A stretch of 44,830 nucleotides of DNA from a virus. Both the position numbers and the translations under genes were made by a program. Below the pieces are notes generated by a model. That model worked only from the letters and a program-made list of their open reading frames with translations. It was not told the origin of the DNA and made no database searches. Below, piece by piece: positions 713 through 42,208 of this stretch. The DNA lies in the IMG/VR virus record IMGVR_UViG_3300046477_000190, positions 1-44,830 of that record. One strand, 5' to 3'. Positions within the stretch are counted from its first letter, which is position 1; every line of letters starts with the position of its first letter.

Positions 713-747
713 TCGCAGGAAAAACGGGGCCTATAATGAGACCCCTA
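713..747 (+). promoter_or_regulatory. Phage promoter P1 (TCGC-N15-TATAAT-GAGACCCCTA)
   Basis: TCGC at 713-716 and a perfect -10 TATAAT at 732-737 lie exactly 19 bases apart (start to start), followed by GAGACCCCTACC. The same arrangement occurs five more times at 40-42 kb. GGGG and CCCC flank the -10 here. No TTGACA-type -35 is visible, so TCGC at about -31 may replace it. The leader to the ATG at 764 is very short and includes the ribosome site GAAAGG. Confidence 0.85.
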
Positions 748-14055: not shown

Positions 14056-14376
14056 TTGCTAGAAAGCAAATTCCAGGCGAAACTCGTCACTAAGCTCCGA
14101 CTCTTGTTTCCTGGATGCATGATTCTGAAGAACGACTCCGGATATCTGCAAGGCGTTCCCGATCTCGTGTTGTTGTATCGAGACCGGTGGGCTATGCTTG
14201 AAGTCAAGAAAGACAAGCCTTCCAGGTATCAGCCCAATCAGGAGTACTATCTCCAGATGCTGAACGAGATGTCGTTCGCTTCGCGTATCGACCCTTCTAA
14301 CGAACAGGAAGTTCTAAGTGCGCTTCAACGTGCATTCGAACCTCGCCGGAACCCACGCCTTCCTCGGCGCGAGTAA
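14056..14376 (+). CDS. VRR-NUC domain nuclease, 106 aa
   Basis: TTG 14056 is the best start; AAGGAG lies upstream with long spacing and no ATG is available. VRR-NUC signatures are present: SGYLQGVPDLVLL (D36), then WAMLEVKK (E49-V-K51) and PNQ (60-62). This PD-(D/E)XK-type family is small and often stand-alone in phages, where it acts on branched or flapped DNA. It overlaps the next nuclease gene by 59 bases in another frame. Together with the helicase it suggests a recombination or junction-processing set. Confidence 0.88.
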   Translation: MLESKFQAKLVTKLRLLFPGCMILKNDSGYLQGVPDLVLLYRDRWAMLEVKKDKPSRYQPNQEYYLQMLNEMSFASRIDPSNEQEVLSALQRAFEPRRNPRLPRRE

Positions 14377-14878
14377 CTATCACTGGATCAACTACGACGA
14401 CGCCAAGCTCGACCATGCTTTCACGACCGCTCAGGCGGCCCGTAGAGGCACGCAGATGCATGAGTTGGCGTACCAGTGCATCGCACTTGGGGTGAGGCTT
14501 CCTGACGTCCAGCAGACCATCAATCTGTACGTCAACGACGCCATTGGGTTCAAGATGGTTCCCGAGCAGATCCTGTTCTATTCCCCAAACTGTTACGGAA
14601 CCGCGGACACAATCTCGTTCCGTCGCGACAAGTTGCGTATCCATGACTTGAAGAACGGCGTGACTAAGTCATCCGAGAATCAGCTCTATGTGTATGCAGC
14701 GCTCTTCTGCCTCGAGTACGAGGTTAAGCCGCACCAGATCGAAACCGAACTTCGGATCTATCAGAGCGATGAAGTCCGAACGTACGAAGGCGATCCGGAG
14801 ACGATCCTCTACATCATGAGCAAGATAAAAGCTTTCGACGCAAGGATCGAAGCGATCAAGCTCGACCTGTACTCGTAA
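14318..14878 (+). CDS. PD-(D/E)XK (Cas4/RecB-like) nuclease, 186 aa
   Basis: GTG 14318 lies inside the VRR-NUC gene, so the two are probably translationally coupled. Motifs of the RecB/Cas4-type nuclease fold appear in order: GTxMHELA (H48), GTAD (D97), IHDLKNG (D110-L-K112), and QLYVYAALF (Q122). No iron-sulfur cysteine cluster is seen, so it is not a typical Cas4. It probably degrades DNA ends during replication or recombination. Confidence 0.8.
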   Translation: MRFNVHSNLAGTHAFLGASNYHWINYDDAKLDHAFTTAQAARRGTQMHELAYQCIALGVRLPDVQQTINLYVNDAIGFKMVPEQILFYSPNCYGTADTISFRRDKLRIHDLKNGVTKSSENQLYVYAALFCLEYEVKPHQIETELRIYQSDEVRTYEGDPETILYIMSKIKAFDARIEAIKLDLYS

Positions 14879-14894: not shown

Positions 14895-17561
14895 GTGGAG
14901 TTAAATGAAGAAGATTATCTCGCGCACTACGGAATCCTTCGAAAGTCTGGACGTTATCCGTGGGGTTCGGGAGCAACCCAAGAAGAGCGCAACCGCACCT
15001 TCCTCAGCACAATCGAGGATCTTCGCGTCAACCACAAGTTGAGTGATACTGAGATCGCCCGTGGTTTCGGAATGACCACAACTCAACTTCGCGCTAGTCG
15101 GTCGATTGCGAAGAATGCAGAGAAGCAGGGTCAGATTAACATGGCTCAGCGACTCAAGGATAAGGGATATTCAAACGTTGCCATTGGGCAGCGAATGGAA
15201 TTGAACGAATCCTCCGTTCGCGCACTTCTTGCGCCTGGAGCCAAGGACAAGGCCGATATTCTCGAAACCACGTCCAACATGCTCAAGGACGCAGTCGAGG
15301 AGAAGCACTACGTCGACATCGGAAGTGGTGTCGAGCATCACCTCGGCGTTAGCTCTACCAAGCTCTCTACGGCCGTCGCACGGCTTCAGGAAGAGGGCTA
15401 CACGGTTCACTACGTGAAGGTCGAGCAACTCGGAACAGGCCAGCAGACCACCATCAAGGTTCTCGCTCGTCCAGACACTCCGTACAGCGAAGTCTATCGG
15501 AATCGTGACAACATCAAGCAAGTCACGAGTTACTCCGAAGATGGTGGTAGAACCTACAACAGGATCCAGCCACCCATCTCGATCGACTCTAAGCGCGTCT
15601 CAGTTCGCTACGCGAACGAAGGTGGGGCAGACGCAGATGGCGTCATTTATGTACGCCCAGGAGTCAAGGATGTATCGCTAGGAGCGTCTCGTTATGCTCA
15701 GGTTCGTGTCGCAGTTGATGGCACGCACTACCTCAAGGGCATGGCGATGTACAAGGACGATCTGCCTGCTGGCACAGATCTACAGTTCAACACGAACAAG
15801 AAGGAAACCGGCAACAAGCTCGACGCCATGAAGCCGATGAAGGATGACCCAGACAATCCGTTTGGTGCGTCCATTAGTCGGCAGATCGGCGAAGACGGTC
15901 CCGATGGCAAGAAGCGTGTCACCTCAGTGATGAACATCGTCAATGAGGAAGGTGACTGGGAAAACTGGTCTAGAAGCCTGTCGTCTCAGATGCTATCGAA
16001 GCAGAGTCCGGCCTTGGCTAAGACTCAGCTCGACATGACACTCTCGCGGAAGAAGAATGAGCTTGAAGAAATTCAGGCCCTAGATAACCCCGCCGTCAAA
16101 AGGAAGCTGCTTGAGTCCTACGCAGATGACGCCGATTCTTCGGCTGTCCATCTCAAGGCTGCAGCTTTGCCACGTCAAGGCTCGCACGTCATACTCCCAG
16201 TCAATTCGATGAAGGAGACGGAAGTCTATGCACCTAACTTCCGTGATGGTGAACGAGTGGTGCTGGTTCGCTATCCTCATGGCGGTATCTTCGAAATTCC
16301 GGAACTTACCGTAAACAATCGGCACCCGGAAGCGAAGAAACTGCTTGGAAATGCAAAAGATGCAATCGGCATCCACAGCAAGGTCGCAGAACGTTTGTCT
16401 GGTGCCGACTTCGATGGCGACACCGTTCTTGTGATTCCGAACAACAGTCGTAAAGTCAAGACCGAACCTGCGCTTGAGGGTTTGAAGGGTTTCGATCCTC
16501 AGCGAGCTTATCCTGGTTATGAAGGTATGACCAAGATGTCGGCCAGAACCAAGGCTATCGAGATGGGAATCATCTCAAACCTCATCACCGACATGACAAT
16601 TCGTGGTGCCACATCTGCTGAGAAAGCACAAGCAGTTCGGCATTCAATGGTTGTCATCGATGCTGAGAAGCACGGCCTTGACTGGAAGCGGTCTGCAACC
16701 GACAACGGCATTTCGAGGTTGAAGGAAAAGTACCAGGGTCGCAAGAATGCTGGCGCATCAACTGTGATCTCTAGGGCGTCTGCAGAAGTTCGAGTTCCTG
16801 AACGTAAGGCTCGGCCTGCTGCAGAAGGTGGACCTATCGATAGAGTCACAGGCAAGAAGGTCTTTGAAGAGACTGGAAATACCTACACCAATCGTGCCGG
16901 CAAGACGGTTGTCAAAACCGTCCAGTCCAAGAAGCTTGCGGAAACAGACGATGCTCACACCTTGTCGTCCGGAACTCCGATCGAGAAGATCTATGCAGAC
17001 CACTCGAACAAGTTGAAGGATCTTGCCAATCAGGCAAGACTGGAAGCGATCAACACCAAGACGACTCCATATTCACCTGCTGCTAAAGTGAAGTATGCTG
17101 ATCAAGTCAAGACTCTTGAAGCCAAGCTTAATCTGGCACTCAGGAACAGTCCGCTTGAACGGCAAGCCCAGGTGATCGCAAACTCCGTTGTTACTCAGAA
17201 GCGGAACGCGAACCCTGACATGGAGCCGTCTGAGATTAAGAAGCTGAAAGCACAGGCACTAACCGAAGCCCGTAATCGCACTGGCGCAAAGAAGACCCGT
17301 ATCGAAATCAGTGACGATGAATGGACTGCGATTCAGGCCGGCGCAATCAGTACCAATAGGTTGCATCAGATCTTGAACAATGCAGATCTGGATAAGGTCA
17401 AGCAACTAGCAACACCGAAGTCTAGAGACAAGCTCAACTCAGGTAAGGTCAACCAAGCAATCGCCATGCTTCGAAACGGTTACACTCAAGCAGAAGTGGC
17501 TGATCAACTTGGTGTGTCTGTCTCGACCCTGAAGCGAAACCTTAGTGAAGGTGGTGCATGA
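14895..17561 (+). CDS. Single-chain RNA polymerase-like protein (DFDGD), 888 aa
   Basis: GTG 14895 follows GGGGGATGAGA. Residues 9-26 read LAHYGILRKSGRYPWGSG, the phage motif related to GMKWG tags seen at 19278 and 22579. Residues 40-115 contain two HTH-like blocks (SDTEIARGFGMTTTQLRA; SNVAIGQRMELNESSVRALL). A first double-psi-barrel-like region has K281 and K287 (HYLKGMAMYK). The core matches beta-prime: VVLVRYPHGGIFEIPEL followed by SGADFDGDTVLV with D505, D507 and D509, the metal-binding aspartates. A third HTH-like block ends the chain (GYTQAEVADQLGVSVSTLKR). The layout resembles YonO/QDE-1-like single-chain polymerases. Activity is inferred, not shown. GC appears lower than in the head genes. 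Confidence 0.72.
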   Translation: MELNEEDYLAHYGILRKSGRYPWGSGATQEERNRTFLSTIEDLRVNHKLSDTEIARGFGMTTTQLRASRSIAKNAEKQGQINMAQRLKDKGYSNVAIGQRMELNESSVRALLAPGAKDKADILETTSNMLKDAVEEKHYVDIGSGVEHHLGVSSTKLSTAVARLQEEGYTVHYVKVEQLGTGQQTTIKVLARPDTPYSEVYRNRDNIKQVTSYSEDGGRTYNRIQPPISIDSKRVSVRYANEGGADADGVIYVRPGVKDVSLGASRYAQVRVAVDGTHYLKGMAMYKDDLPAGTDLQFNTNKKETGNKLDAMKPMKDDPDNPFGASISRQIGEDGPDGKKRVTSVMNIVNEEGDWENWSRSLSSQMLSKQSPALAKTQLDMTLSRKKNELEEIQALDNPAVKRKLLESYADDADSSAVHLKAAALPRQGSHVILPVNSMKETEVYAPNFRDGERVVLVRYPHGGIFEIPELTVNNRHPEAKKLLGNAKDAIGIHSKVAERLSGADFDGDTVLVIPNNSRKVKTEPALEGLKGFDPQRAYPGYEGMTKMSARTKAIEMGIISNLITDMTIRGATSAEKAQAVRHSMVVIDAEKHGLDWKRSATDNGISRLKEKYQGRKNAGASTVISRASAEVRVPERKARPAAEGGPIDRVTGKKVFEETGNTYTNRAGKTVVKTVQSKKLAETDDAHTLSSGTPIEKIYADHSNKLKDLANQARLEAINTKTTPYSPAAKVKYADQVKTLEAKLNLALRNSPLERQAQVIANSVVTQKRNANPDMEPSEIKKLKAQALTEARNRTGAKKTRIEISDDEWTAIQAGAISTNRLHQILNNADLDKVKQLATPKSRDKLNSGKVNQAIAMLRNGYTQAEVADQLGVSVSTLKRNLSEGGA

Positions 17562-17809
17562 TGGAAGAACACATGCTCACCACCAAGGACAACCCATACA
17601 GTCCCGTCACTGAGTTCGATGAGTGGCGCACTTGGGACCAAGCAGCAGGCTACAATACGCTGTCTTACTTAGGTCGTGTGGTGAGAACATCAGACGAACT
17701 ATCCGATGCTGATCAAAGCCTTGCCTATGAGCAGGCCATAGATGAGATCGTGGCTAACAACGGCGACTTCTACGTCAAGGTTGTAGTGCCTGGTGAGACA
17801 GCAGCATAG
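17558..17809 (+). CDS. Small conserved partner protein, 83 aa
   Basis: ATG 17558 overlaps the TGA of the polymerase-like gene (ATGA); an internal ATG at 17573 (MLTTKDNPYSP) is a possible alternative start because homologous small phage proteins begin that way. The sequence TTKDNPYSPVTEFDEW...YNTLSYLGRV...DELSDADQSLAYEQAIDEIV is a recurrent small protein found next to this large gene in phages. Its role is unknown; the coupling suggests it works with the polymerase-like protein. Confidence 0.8.
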   Translation: MMEEHMLTTKDNPYSPVTEFDEWRTWDQAAGYNTLSYLGRVVRTSDELSDADQSLAYEQAIDEIVANNGDFYVKVVVPGETAA

Positions 17810-39929: not shown

Positions 39930-40211
39930 ATGCTGAGCAAGACCGAGCTCGACCAGAAGTTCAGTGCCGCCAAGGATCACGGCGAGGAGGTCGCGGCCAA
40001 GTTCAAGGAGTTCGTCCTGCATCTGGACGGCGTTCTGCCGGACGGTCTGTCCAAGACCAAGCTCATGAACAAGCTGGAAGAGGCCTCCAACTGGGCGCAC
40101 AACGCGCTGGCCGACGCCGAGACCGCGGCGAAGAACCTGGCTCACCAGCGTGCGAAGTCGGGCGCCAAGCCGGCGACCACCGAGCCGCAGGACGCTGCTC
40201 CGGTCAGTTAG
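39930..40211 (+). CDS. Acb2/Tad1-like hairpin protein, candidate anti-CBASS/anti-Thoeris sponge, 93 aa
   Basis: ATG 39930 follows AAGGA. An all-helical protein. Residues about 24-62 (KFKEFVLHLDGVLPDG, then LMNKLEEASNWAHNALA) match the conserved core of the Acb2/Tad1 hairpin family, in which LTKLEEAxxWAxxAIA is the family signature. Family members bind cyclic nucleotides (Acb2 sequesters CBASS signals; Tad1 binds Thoeris signals). The C-terminus is extended and acidic. Its place directly after the holin, in an accessory arc, fits an anti-defence role. Ligand and specificity are not visible. Confidence 0.6.
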   Translation: MLSKTELDQKFSAAKDHGEEVAAKFKEFVLHLDGVLPDGLSKTKLMNKLEEASNWAHNALADAETAAKNLAHQRAKSGAKPATTEPQDAAPVS

Positions 40212-40223
40212 TCTTCTAGGGGC

Positions 40224-40258
40224 TCGCGAGAATAACTTCTCGTATAATGAGACCCCTA
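40224..40258 (+). promoter_or_regulatory. Phage promoter P2
   Basis: TCGC at 40224-40227, 19 bases before TATAAT at 40243-40248, then GAGACCCCTACT. A perfect CGAGAA/TTCTCG hairpin (40227-40242) lies directly upstream of the -10, a feature not seen in the other copies. GAAAGG follows before the ATG. Confidence 0.85.
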
Positions 40259-40273
40259 CTGAAAGGCTACGCC

Positions 40274-40552
40274 ATGATCATCAAGACACAACCCACTGTG
40301 CTCGACGAGACCATCGACGCTGCTCTCTCGGAGCTGAAGGAACTCAAGACGAACGACCCCGCTTACCAGACGACCCTGGACCGCGTGAAGGAACTCTACA
40401 AGCTGAAGGAGCAGAACACTCCCAAGCGCGTGAGTCCCGACACGATGGTCCTGGTCGCCGGTAACCTGGCCGGCATTGTCCTGATCCTCGGCTACGAGCG
40501 TGCGCACGTCGTGACCTCGAAGGCACTGGGCTTCGTCCTGAAGTCCCGCTGA
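40274..40552 (+). CDS. Cassette membrane protein, 92 aa
   Basis: ATG 40274 follows GAAAGG, driven by promoter P2. The N-terminal half is a charged helical region (LKELKTNDPAYQTTLDRVKELYKLKEQ); one hydrophobic segment is at about 57-74 (TMVLVAGNLAGIVLILGY). It is topped by a strong terminator at 40568-40622. Function unknown. Confidence 0.75.
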   Translation: MIIKTQPTVLDETIDAALSELKELKTNDPAYQTTLDRVKELYKLKEQNTPKRVSPDTMVLVAGNLAGIVLILGYERAHVVTSKALGFVLKSR

Positions 40553-40567
40553 ACCCCCGTAGAACCC

Positions 40568-40622
40568 AACACGCCCCGTGTGAGAGCTAACCACTCTTGC
40601 ACGGGGTTTGTGTTTCTCTTTT
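40568..40622 (+). terminator. Terminator T1
   Basis: AACAC and GTGTT (outer), CCCCGTG (40574-40580) and CACGGGG (40600-40606) form a long hairpin, followed by TCTCTTTT. It ends the P2 cassette. Confidence 0.8.
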
Positions 40623-40627
40623 GCCTT

Positions 40628-40662
40628 TCGCAGAAAAAACGGGGCCTATAATGAGACCCCTA
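40628..40662 (+). promoter_or_regulatory. Phage promoter P3
   Basis: TCGC at 40628-40631 and TATAAT at 40647-40652, then GAGACCCCTATC. It is nearly identical to P1 (ACGGGGCC before the -10). It overlaps the tail of terminator T1. Confidence 0.85.
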
Positions 40663-40677
40663 TCGAAAGGCCACGCC

Positions 40678-40959
40678 ATGAACAAGGAAAAGCTCACCGT
40701 CATCAAGAACAAGATCAAGGACCACTCCCCGGAACTGATCTCGGCTACCATCGCGATCCTCTCGATTGCTGTCGTCGTCCAAACCAAGAAGAACTTCCGC
40801 CTCCACGAAAAGGAGTTGCTGAGCTTCATTGGAGAAGGACCCGACTTCATTTCGATCGATCGCATCAGGGCAGAAGAGATCAAGAACGGCAAAGTGTTCG
40901 GATACGATCTTGAGAACGGTACGCGAATTCTGATTTCAAAGGCAGCACAGAACAAGTAA
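40678..40959 (+). CDS. Cassette membrane protein, 93 aa
   Basis: ATG 40678 follows GAAAGG, in the P3 leader. A basic N-terminus, a hydrophobic segment at about 20-35 (LISATIAILSIAVVVQ), then a soluble beta-rich domain (SFIGEGPDFISIDRIRAEEIKNGKVFGYDLENGTRILIS). Terminator T2 follows. Function unknown. Confidence 0.75.
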   Translation: MNKEKLTVIKNKIKDHSPELISATIAILSIAVVVQTKKNFRLHEKELLSFIGEGPDFISIDRIRAEEIKNGKVFGYDLENGTRILISKAAQNK

Positions 40960-40967
40960 TCTCACCG

Positions 40968-41000
40968 CCTAAACACCCTAACACGGTGTTTAGGTTTTTT
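40968..41000 (+). terminator. Terminator T2
   Basis: CCTAAACACC (40968-40977) and GGTGTTTAGG (40985-40994) pair perfectly around the loop CTAACAC, followed by TTTTTT. It is the prototype of the repeated cassette terminator. Confidence 0.88.
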
Positions 41001-41027
41001 GCCTTTCGCAGATAGGGAGACGAGATT

Positions 41028-41111
41028 TTGGTAGTAGATATGCTCATAGGCATCGTGTTTTTCATCCTCGGCTGGAGCATGGCGGACTTCTTCAAAGACT
41101 TCAGACCCTAA
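41028..41111 (+). CDS. Membrane microprotein, 27 aa
   Basis: TTG 41028 has AGGGAGA seven bases upstream; ATG 41040 is an alternative start. The peptide is one hydrophobic segment (MLIGIVFFILGWSMADFF) with a short charged end. It lies between terminator T2 and promoter P4. It is short, and its coding status is moderate. Confidence 0.5.
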   Translation: MVVDMLIGIVFFILGWSMADFFKDFRP

Positions 41112-41146
41112 TCGCATGCTTTACACGGCCTATAATGAGACCCCTA
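41112..41146 (+). promoter_or_regulatory. Phage promoter P4
   Basis: TCGC at 41112-41115 and TATAAT at 41131-41136, then GAGACCCCTACT. GAAAGG follows before ATG 41162. Confidence 0.85.
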
Positions 41147-41161
41147 CTGAAAGGCCATGTA

Positions 41162-41359
41162 ATGGACAACTTTGAATCCGCCATCTACCGCGAACTCTTC
41201 AACTTTCCTGGACAGCTCTACATCACTCCCGATGGTCACCAGATCTATTTTCTGAATGATAAGAAGGAGATGTACCGAGTCGTTACCGAAGAAAACTTGA
41301 AGGAGAAGACCGATGCCGAAATTAACAAGTTCATCGCTGATGCCCTAGCAAATAACTGA
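41162..41359 (+). CDS. Cassette protein, 65 aa
   Basis: ATG 41162 follows AAAGG in the P4 leader. A soluble, mainly helical protein with an aromatic centre (FPGQLYITPDGHQIYFLNDKKEMYRV), the only cassette product without an obvious membrane segment. Terminator T3 follows. Function unknown. Confidence 0.7.
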   Translation: MDNFESAIYRELFNFPGQLYITPDGHQIYFLNDKKEMYRVVTEENLKEKTDAEINKFIADALANN

Positions 41360-41367
41360 TCTCAAAG

Positions 41368-41399
41368 CCTACAACACCTTAACACGGTGTTTAGGTTTT
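41368..41399 (+). terminator. Terminator T3
   Basis: CCTA plus AACACC (41368-41378) pair with GGTGTT plus TAGG (41386-41395) around the loop TTAACAC, then TTTT. It closes the P4 cassette. Confidence 0.8.
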
Positions 41400-41405
41400 C
41401 GCAGG

Positions 41406-41440
41406 TCGCAAGCATTACATGGCGTATAATGAGACCCCTA
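41406..41440 (+). promoter_or_regulatory. Phage promoter P5
   Basis: TCGC at 41406-41409 and TATAAT at 41425-41430, followed by GAGACCCCTACT. The Shine-Dalgarno is diverged (GATTGG) compared with the other cassettes. Confidence 0.83.
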
Positions 41441-41454
41441 CTGATTGGACCGCC

Positions 41455-41691
41455 ATGAAGCTTAACAAGCGAATTGTTGCAGACATCAGCCTCGCCAAGA
41501 CCCCCAAGAACGAAGAAGACCTCGACACTGAGATCGCCGCCGTCGTCGGAGAGTCCGCCACCAATATCATTAACGGTATGGTGGAAGACATCCTGCGCCC
41601 CGCTGCGAAAATCATAGTCACGTCCATCGTCACGGTGACCGTCGTGAGTGCTGTCTGCCGCATCGCCGTCAAGACCACCCGCAACCACTAG
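41455..41691 (+). CDS. Cassette membrane protein, 78 aa
   Basis: ATG 41455 in the P5 leader. An N-terminal soluble helical region (NEEDLDTEIAAVVGESATNIIN) and one hydrophobic segment at about 52-71 (KIIVTSIVTVTVVSAVCRI), ending basic (TTRNH). Terminator T4 follows. Function unknown. Confidence 0.75.
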   Translation: MKLNKRIVADISLAKTPKNEEDLDTEIAAVVGESATNIINGMVEDILRPAAKIIVTSIVTVTVVSAVCRIAVKTTRNH

Positions 41692-41697
41692 ACCTCT

Positions 41698-41740
41698 AAA
41701 CCTGACACCCTAACAAGGTGTTTAGGTTTTATCTTTTTGG
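41698..41740 (+). terminator. Terminator T4
   Basis: AAACCTGACACC (41698-41709) and GGTGTTTAGGTTT (41717-41729) pair with one bulge around CTAACAA, followed by TATCTTTTT. Same design as T2, T3 and T5. Confidence 0.8.
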
Positions 41741-41750
41741 AAGGAGAATC

Positions 41751-41873
41751 ATGTGGTGGATGTTCTTGTTGGGTGGTGCTGTAGGATTCGGATTGGGTTC
41801 TGTATGGATGTACTTCCTAACTCTAAGAGCTGTCGATAAACTAATCGAGGATCGTAAGATCGTTCGAGGGTAG
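41751..41873 (+). CDS. Membrane microprotein, 40 aa
   Basis: ATG 41751 has AAGGAGA upstream, a strong ribosome site. A hydrophobic, glycine-rich N-terminal half (MWWMFLLGGAVGFGLGSVW) is followed by a charged tail (DKLIEDRKIVRG). It lies after terminator T4, before promoter P6; it may be expressed by read-through. Function unknown. Confidence 0.65.
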   Translation: MWWMFLLGGAVGFGLGSVWMYFLTLRAVDKLIEDRKIVRG

Positions 41874-41888
41874 GGTTTCAGCGAGGGG

Positions 41889-41923
41889 TCGCGAAAAAAA
41901 CATGGCATATAATGAGACCCCTA
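41889..41923 (+). promoter_or_regulatory. Phage promoter P6
   Basis: TCGC at 41889-41892 and TATAAT at 41908-41913, then GAGACCCCTACC. The leader is diverged (CTAAGGATTTGAA before the ATG). Confidence 0.85.
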
Positions 41924-41938
41924 CCCTAAGGATTTGAA

Positions 41939-42163
41939 ATGAAGAAGATTTCCGATCTCTTCCCCAAGACCCGCACCGTCACCGTTGACGGCGTCGAGGT
42001 GGAGGTGGAAGCCCCCGAGAAGACCGAGGCGCAGTTGGCAAATGCCCGCTTCGTCAAGATCGCTTTGGCTACCACTACCATCGTCGCCGCTGTCGCCGTT
42101 TACGCGAAGGTCTCCGGAAGCAAGAACGAGACCGACATCATCGAGAACGCTGAGGAGAACTAG
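41939..42163 (+). CDS. Cassette membrane protein, 74 aa
   Basis: ATG 41939 in the P6 leader, with CTAAGGA upstream. N-terminal 38 residues are soluble and acidic (VTVDGVEVEVEAPEKTEAQ); a membrane segment follows at about 39-56 (VKIALATTTIVAAVAVYA). Terminator T5 ends it. Function unknown. Confidence 0.75.
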   Translation: MKKISDLFPKTRTVTVDGVEVEVEAPEKTEAQLANARFVKIALATTTIVAAVAVYAKVSGSKNETDIIENAEEN

Positions 42164-42170
42164 CCTCAAC

Positions 42171-42208
42171 AACCATAGACCCTAACACGGTTTATGGTTT
42201 TCCTTTTC
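42171..42208 (+). terminator. Terminator T5
   Basis: An 11-bp stem, 42171-42181 with 42189-42199 (one G-U pair), around the loop CTAACAC, followed by a T-rich tail (TTTCCTTTT). Same design as T2. Confidence 0.85.

Follow-up and report, generated by a model that had tools for sequence, protein, structure and literature searches.

The stretch of DNA analysed here (the window: IMG/VR virus record IMGVR_UViG_3300046477_000190, positions 1 to 44,830, 44,830 nucleotides) carries six copies of one short sequence element, in which TCGC stands a fixed distance upstream of TATAAT and which is followed each time by a small open reading frame (ORF) and a hairpin. The question raised by this locus is what reads the element. 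We consider it likely that the six copies are promoters dedicated to an RNA polymerase that the phage itself encodes, a predicted single-chain enzyme of the two-barrel superfamily, and that they drive small, fast-changing genes and small RNAs. As seen in the sequences of this and related phages, the element is asymmetric, lies on one strand, is locked in position ahead of small ORFs, tRNAs and structured RNAs, and is inherited together with the polymerase gene.

Six copies of one element and their cassettes

The sequence TATAATGAGACCCCTA occurs exactly at 732, 40243, 40647, 41131, 41425 and 41908, always on the plus strand, and no further match was found in the window when up to three mismatches were allowed. 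The expectation from shuffling, with the same tolerance, is 0.08, and no shuffle reached six copies. TCGC is found at 713, 40224, 40628, 41112, 41406 and 41889, in all six cases exactly 19 bases 5' of TATAAT, and the element in the window has the form TCGC-N15-TATAATGAGACCCCTA. A preliminary description of the same DNA had proposed one shared, position-locked promoter-like element with an invariant 19-base distance, and both points hold. The element copies, with the ORF and hairpin that follow each of them (distances in nucleotides, nt; lengths in amino acids, aa; all on the plus strand), are as follows.

713-747, plus strand: promoter-like element, copy 1 (TCGC at 713, TATAAT 732-737, predicted first transcribed base, +1, at 738; exact match, position weight matrix score 50.3; its position in the gene order is that of the last site in Streptomyces phage Bilo)
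764-901, plus strand: 45-aa ORF of cassette 1, one hydrophobic segment
923-959, plus strand: hairpin and T-rich run of cassette 1 (fold of 901-965, -14.1 kcal/mol)
40224-40258, plus strand: promoter-like element, copy 2 (TATAAT 40243-40248, predicted +1 at 40249)
40274-40552, plus strand: 92-aa ORF related to Bilo gene 26, in phrog_5818, a family of unknown function
40568-40614, plus strand: hairpin/terminator of cassette 2 (-28.5 kcal/mol)
40628-40662, plus strand: promoter-like element, copy 3 (TATAAT 40647-40652, predicted +1 at 40653)
40678-40959, plus strand: 93-aa ORF, one hydrophobic segment
40967-40995, plus strand: hairpin/terminator of cassette 3 (-16.6 kcal/mol)
41112-41146, plus strand: promoter-like element, copy 4 (TATAAT 41131-41136, predicted +1 at 41137)
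41162-41359, plus strand: 65-aa ORF, without a hydrophobic segment
41367-41399, plus strand: hairpin/terminator of cassette 4 (limits approximate; -15.3 kcal/mol)
41406-41440, plus strand: promoter-like element, copy 5 (TATAAT 41425-41430, predicted +1 at 41431)
41455-41691, plus strand: 78-aa ORF, one strong hydrophobic segment
41698-41729, plus strand: hairpin/terminator of cassette 5 (-12.7 kcal/mol)
41889-41923, plus strand: promoter-like element, copy 6 (TATAAT 41908-41913, predicted +1 at 41914)
41939-42163, plus strand: 74-aa ORF, one hydrophobic segment
42171-42199, plus strand: hairpin/terminator of cassette 6 (-13.5 kcal/mol)

At all six copies an ATG lies 24-26 nt past TATAAT, opening ORFs of 45, 92, 93, 65, 78 and 74 aa. 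A hairpin stands 3' of every cassette ORF, with a T-rich run after most, and folding gives -12.7 to -28.5 kcal/mol. The arrangement of one tiny ORF and one hairpin per copy therefore stands for the six cassettes, but not for two further tiny hydrophobic ORFs in the array (41040-41111, 23 aa; 41751-41873, 40 aa), which lie between a terminator and the next promoter and have no copy of their own. The ORFs had also been described as mostly having one membrane segment; a clearly hydrophobic segment is present in four or five of the six, and the 65-aa ORF has none. Among the ORFs of the main array only the first (40274) has a clear known relative, and no cassette ORF has a Pfam match above the curated cut-off.

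The upstream spacers, the ORFs and the terminators are unlike from copy to copy. This bears on the idea that the copies are identical simply through recent duplication of a moron cassette, which is suggested by the tandem repetition of promoter-ORF-terminator units. Recent duplication is most improbable, since these parts differ and the boxes are kept across phages with polymerases that are only 43-46% identical to that of the window.

A scan of IMG/VR for the 16-mer gave at least 118 stretches, and an alignment and weight matrix were built from 223 unique copies. In these, positions that had not been used in the search are conserved, namely TCGC(A/G) at -19 to -15 and ACA at -8 to -6, as is GAAAGG, which resembles a Shine-Dalgarno sequence, ahead of the start codon. 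The canonical -35 is missing, as had been noted at the outset, and TCGCR and ACA boxes are found instead. When 262 copies were picked by TATAATGAGACCCC alone, TCGC was exactly at -19 in 244 of them, with other offsets at about background, and the start codon was mostly 23-28 nt past TATAAT.

The core common to 246 unique sites in more diverse phages is TCGCR-N7-ACA-N5-TATAATGA, and the CCCC part is not common. The preliminary description had taken GAGACCCCTA as part of a universal recognition sequence and had overlooked the ACA box at -8; because CCCC is missing at tRNA-like sites and in other clades, GAGACCCCTA is better regarded as opening the mRNA leader in one phage group. In phages of Streptomyces, Gordonia and Rhodococcus it is nearly fixed in the leaders of mRNAs (for example at 738-763 of the window), with GAGAACCC in others, and GAGACCCCTA is missing from the tRNA-like transcripts; it might serve translation or stability.

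The element is always oriented toward the gene 3' of it. A palindromic operator was considered and rejected: a GGGG...CCCC dyad is present in some copies only, and the consensus is asymmetric. The same orientation makes it very unlikely that the element mainly serves a phage protein as an operator or as a replication or packaging site, of repressor or stoperator type, with the promoters elsewhere. Multiple identical copies in one genome are what such a site would show, and mycobacteriophage stoperators are likewise present in multiple identical copies per genome, but in most copies here a start codon follows TATAAT at 23-28 nt, and tRNA-like genes begin immediately 3' of the element. In Arthrobacter phage Qui (stretch L137, positions 16580-16750), a 26-nt inverted repeat encloses one copy of ATAATGAGAGG from the promoter, together with the reverse complement some 170 nt further along.

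Predicted position of the transcription start

TATAAT matches the sigma-70 -10 box exactly in all six copies, with no TTGACA-like -35 about 17 nt upstream. A sigma-70 promoter would be expected to start about 7 nt after the -10, and this can be judged indirectly from the position of the stems in structured RNAs behind the element, which do not fit such a start.

In phage ReqiPepy6 a tRNA starts 9 nt past TATAAT (ARAGORN, Rfam), and behind the next copy a GAGAAG-GAAA-CTTCTC hairpin starts at the base directly after TATAAT. In other phages, stems of about 9-16 bp start at or beside the base after TATAAT, and a few reach some bases into the AT-rich box. At 27 non-mRNA sites, compared with shuffled downstream sequence, 6-mers from +1, +2 and +3 pair downstream (z of 7.1, 6.6 and 6.4), while 6-mers starting from -18 to -4 show no pairing (z ≤0.5); the signal climbs only once +1 and its neighbours are included. 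No such signal was found at 199 mRNA-like sites in an 8-mer test. It is predicted that the RNA starts at the purine directly after TATAAT and not about 7 bases on, assuming that the pairing is selected in the RNA. A start 7 nt further on would remove the 5' arm of the stems. Because structured RNAs begin at the very next base, TATAAT is probably not a sigma-70 -10.

The structured RNAs are of several kinds. In ReqiPepy6 (stretch L140, positions 14193-14560) the promoter is placed to drive a tRNA-Ala, and the adjoining RNA with the GAAA-capped hairpin matches no Rfam family at the gathering score. In stretches L312, L315, L316, L322 and L134 the promoters precede tRNA-like RNAs with extended or odd stems, some of which have an intrinsic terminator merged into the acceptor stem. 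The one in L134 is not reported by ARAGORN.

These boundaries are also relevant to the proposal that the element is an extended -10 promoter for host RNA polymerase carrying the main sigma factor, and that a phage activator, repressor or polymerase modifier uses the TCGC and ACA boxes. TATAAT is the sigma-70 consensus, several helix-turn-helix (HTH) proteins are annotated in the relatives, and small phage proteins often alter host polymerase. We nevertheless think it unlikely, given that there is no -35, that the RNAs have their 5' boundary where a sigma-70 start would cut their stems, and that the same box layout is found in phages of Actinomycetota and of Bacillota, which makes a phage-borne reader more likely.

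A candidate polymerase and its linkage to the element

The window encodes a candidate for such a reader, and a small gene stands directly after it.

14895-17561, plus strand: predicted single-subunit two-barrel RNA polymerase, 888 aa, phrog_4291 (DFDGD at residues 505-509; C-terminal sigma-region-4-like HTH at 861-884)
17558-17809, plus strand: conserved 83-aa gene, phrog_4303

The 888-aa protein matches phrog_4291 ('RNA-dependent RNA polymerase') with 1365 bits. It contains ADFDGD, in which DFDGD, invariant in 89 sequences of relatives, corresponds to the catalytic DxDxD motif that the superfamily has in a double-psi beta-barrel; a Pfam RdRP match around it (residues 496-601, E=0.014) is weak and below the cut-off. 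The AlphaFold model has a mean pLDDT of 80.7 and a pTM of 0.69. In a Foldseek search of PDB, all 12 matches with E<0.001 are QDE-1, RDR2, P74-26 gp62 or P23-45 gp64, with probability 1.00. The C-terminal HTH matches sigma-70 region 4 (E=7e-6), and the N-terminal helices include further HTH-like stretches on inspection of the sequence. In most records the family is annotated 'helix-turn-helix DNA-binding domain protein'. A sequence search of PDB gave nothing beyond fragments of HTH domains and helical proteins that are unrelated or designed, and hhalign found no homology to YonO, as discussed below; the assignment is therefore based on three things: catalytic motif, PHROG family and predicted fold. 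On this basis the protein is predicted to be a single-chain polymerase of the QDE-1/YonO/P23-45 two-barrel superfamily.

In the relatives inspected, too, a small gene occupies the place after the polymerase, and the phrog_4303 product is possibly a polymerase cofactor. Two short genes of phage Qui (NC_070877, 51094-51710; stretch L224) have matches to the HTH region of the polymerase, and an HTH protein of Qui also matches it in predicted structure, with 38% identity. These stand-alone copies might compete for or regulate the promoters.

The linkage between element and polymerase was examined in both directions. Starting from the motif, 30 of the 35 records of 30 kb or more that bear it also carry phrog_4291. 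The other five look as if they end ahead of the point where the polymerase usually lies, because the DNA polymerase of this clade lies near the contig end in three (one of them truncated) and is missing from two. Starting from the polymerase, records were picked by protein alone and searched with the core at up to three mismatches, with the reversed pattern as control. The core was found in 34 of 35, made up of 18/18 close and 16/17 distant records; the distant polymerases in IMG/VR were retrieved by an alignment query, single-protein queries having given 0 or 1 match. These records have 3-15 sites, nearly always on a single strand, and the control gives 0-1. Across relatives the number runs from 3 to 33: Qui has 33, ReqiPepy6 15, Cheesy 8, Camille 8, D_HF5_2C 7 and Bilo 5. 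No sites were found in lambda, phiC31, sk1 or SPO1, and SPbeta has one, equal to its control. By blastn over 50,697 phage records, with counts compared by organism, every organism group in which the element was matched has the polymerase as well (element against polymerase: Gordonia 55/55, Streptomyces 54/54, Rhodococcus 4/4, Microbacterium 4/4, Arthrobacter 74/95). In all, 250 records bear the polymerase and 204 the motif. The preliminary description had called for a motif search over related phage genomes, and the element is indeed present in hundreds of relatives; a regulon of six matched units, which had seemed unusual, is within the ordinary range.

Where the polymerase is more divergent, the boxes change. 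The polymerase of Lactococcus phage P118 is 43% identical to the window protein, and this phage has eight plus-strand copies of ACA-N5-TATAATG and none on the other strand, most of them within ATTTTA-N-(G/C)TTTTACATACCCTATAATGA. Phages 1706 and CHPC971 have TCACA-N2-TTTTACA-N5-TATAGTAGA, and Curtobacterium phage Pippin15 has TCGC..ACA..TATAGTAGA or TTTAATAGA. The inspected polymerase-bearing phages that lack the standard pattern have a variant of the same layout, with positions kept and boxes changed. A host-encoded reader is unlikely on this evidence, because the hosts range from Actinomycetota to Lactococcus. In SPbeta a similar element was sought upstream of yonK, and only a loose TTTTACA...TTAAATGA was found; the published start could not be mapped there and nothing is claimed.

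Several observations weigh against the phage polymerase as reader. One polymerase-positive record among the 17 distant ones (G057) has no match to the standard pattern. The clade DNA polymerase is found with the motif no less completely (253 records, same groups), and for this reason co-occurrence points to inheritance as a unit and does not single out the reader among the core genes. Taken over the full chain, the TM-scores from Foldseek are low (about 0.3). There is no sequence homology to YonO, which belongs to phrog_8308 (hhalign probability 2.1%), and SPbeta, whose YonO is a proven RNA polymerase, does not have the element. Some host initiation is conceivable because TATAAT is a perfect sigma-70 -10, and transcription from the element is itself deduced from sequence. 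Taken with the evidence above, a non-standard reader, as first suspected, still seems right, with the two-barrel RNA polymerase encoded in the window as the likeliest candidate in place of the modified host polymerase or operator-binding protein then suggested.

The element, its positions, the linkage, the variants and the fold prediction come from the analysis itself; binding by the polymerase, the start in vivo, the timing of expression and packaging in the virion are inferred. The polymerase would recognise the TCGC and ACA boxes as duplex DNA by its own HTH domains, including the sigma-region-4-like one, would melt TATAAT, and would initiate at the adjacent purine (G or A). Each unit would yield one short mRNA or structured RNA ending at its own hairpin, and in the window each transcript would consist of a leader of about 25 nt (GAGACCCCTA...GAAAGG), the coding sequence of one small protein, in most cases membrane-anchored, and a terminating hairpin. 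The array may serve as a plug-in site, where small genes are gained or lost as promoter-ORF-terminator units with their neighbours undisturbed. The phage 1706 relative, gp75, was deposited as 'structural protein' (EU081845), a label repeated in a ReqiPepy6 note, and this label by itself hints that the polymerase is carried in the virion. If so, the array genes would be the first to be expressed after injection.

Genome context, known systems and significance

The window is colinear with Bilo but circularly permuted. The copy at 713, originally set apart as a separate sixth, does exist; because of the permutation it is the downstream member of the same region as the other five. Lysis and tail genes lie on one side of this region and replication genes on the other. 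Bilo has small ORFs between its genes 26 and 32 for which no counterpart is detectable in the window, though the flanking genes do have one.

Just 5' of the first array promoter is a 93-aa ORF (39930-40211), which matches phrog_1454 (E=2e-10) and has a weak Pfam match, below the cut-off, to an Acb2/Tad1 hairpin (E=0.014). From its sequence the product is possibly a cyclic-nucleotide sponge against host defence. Genes annotated as such a sponge are found elsewhere in a related Curtobacterium phage.

Virion RNA polymerases are known from N4, crAss and P23-45 (gp96). In Thermus phage P23-45 the two-barrel RNA polymerases gp64 and gp96 have been linked to conserved promoter motifs, using the co-occurrence of motif and polymerase across relatives (PMC10770324). 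The likeness to the window lies in a two-barrel single-subunit phage polymerase tied to a conserved promoter motif, and P23-45 gp64 and P74-26 gp62 are among the 12 PDB matches of the window protein. The P23-45 motifs (AT-rich and GC-rich), however, are unrelated to the window element, and gp96 is fused to the tape measure, whereas the window enzyme is a separate gene with HTH domains. YonO of Bacillus phage SPbeta is a single-chain RNA polymerase proven to transcribe phage genes, with the promoter sequence and the need for extra factors left open (PMC5467207). It belongs to the same superfamily and likewise carries such a motif, DNDGD, but it serves one late operon, whereas the window element heads many small units.

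T7 RNA polymerase starts at TATA|GGGAGA. T7-type promoters are likewise compact and asymmetric, with a melting box abutting the first transcribed purine and many copies per genome; the polymerase fold is unrelated and the boxes differ. Phage morons, which are expressed in a lysogen to the advantage of the host, are single genes between their own promoter and terminator, as the window units are, but the latter all share one dedicated phage-specific promoter and form one array beside the lysis genes. A motif-linked two-barrel phage polymerase is already known from P23-45, and in the open-licence full texts searched we found no paper describing the present element.

A wider proposal, to which we give a little under an even chance, is that a large clade of phages with Actinomycetota and Bacillota hosts uses a virion-delivered, self-sufficient two-barrel RNA polymerase with a sigma-like HTH, which reads a 27-bp duplex promoter without a sigma factor, starts right after TATAAT, and thereby expresses an array of exchangeable small membrane proteins, along with small RNAs, at the outset of infection. 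With the promoter defined, its start base predicted and the polymerase named, a single protein and a single DNA template are enough for a test. If the assignment is correct, the 'HTH DNA-binding protein' gene would be re-annotated in many sequenced actinophages, the small genes of these phages and their promoters could be catalogued, and the pair could provide a new orthogonal expression system for Streptomyces and its relatives. An enzyme that combines a single chain with a sigma-like HTH of its own would also bear on the evolution of promoter recognition in two-barrel polymerases.

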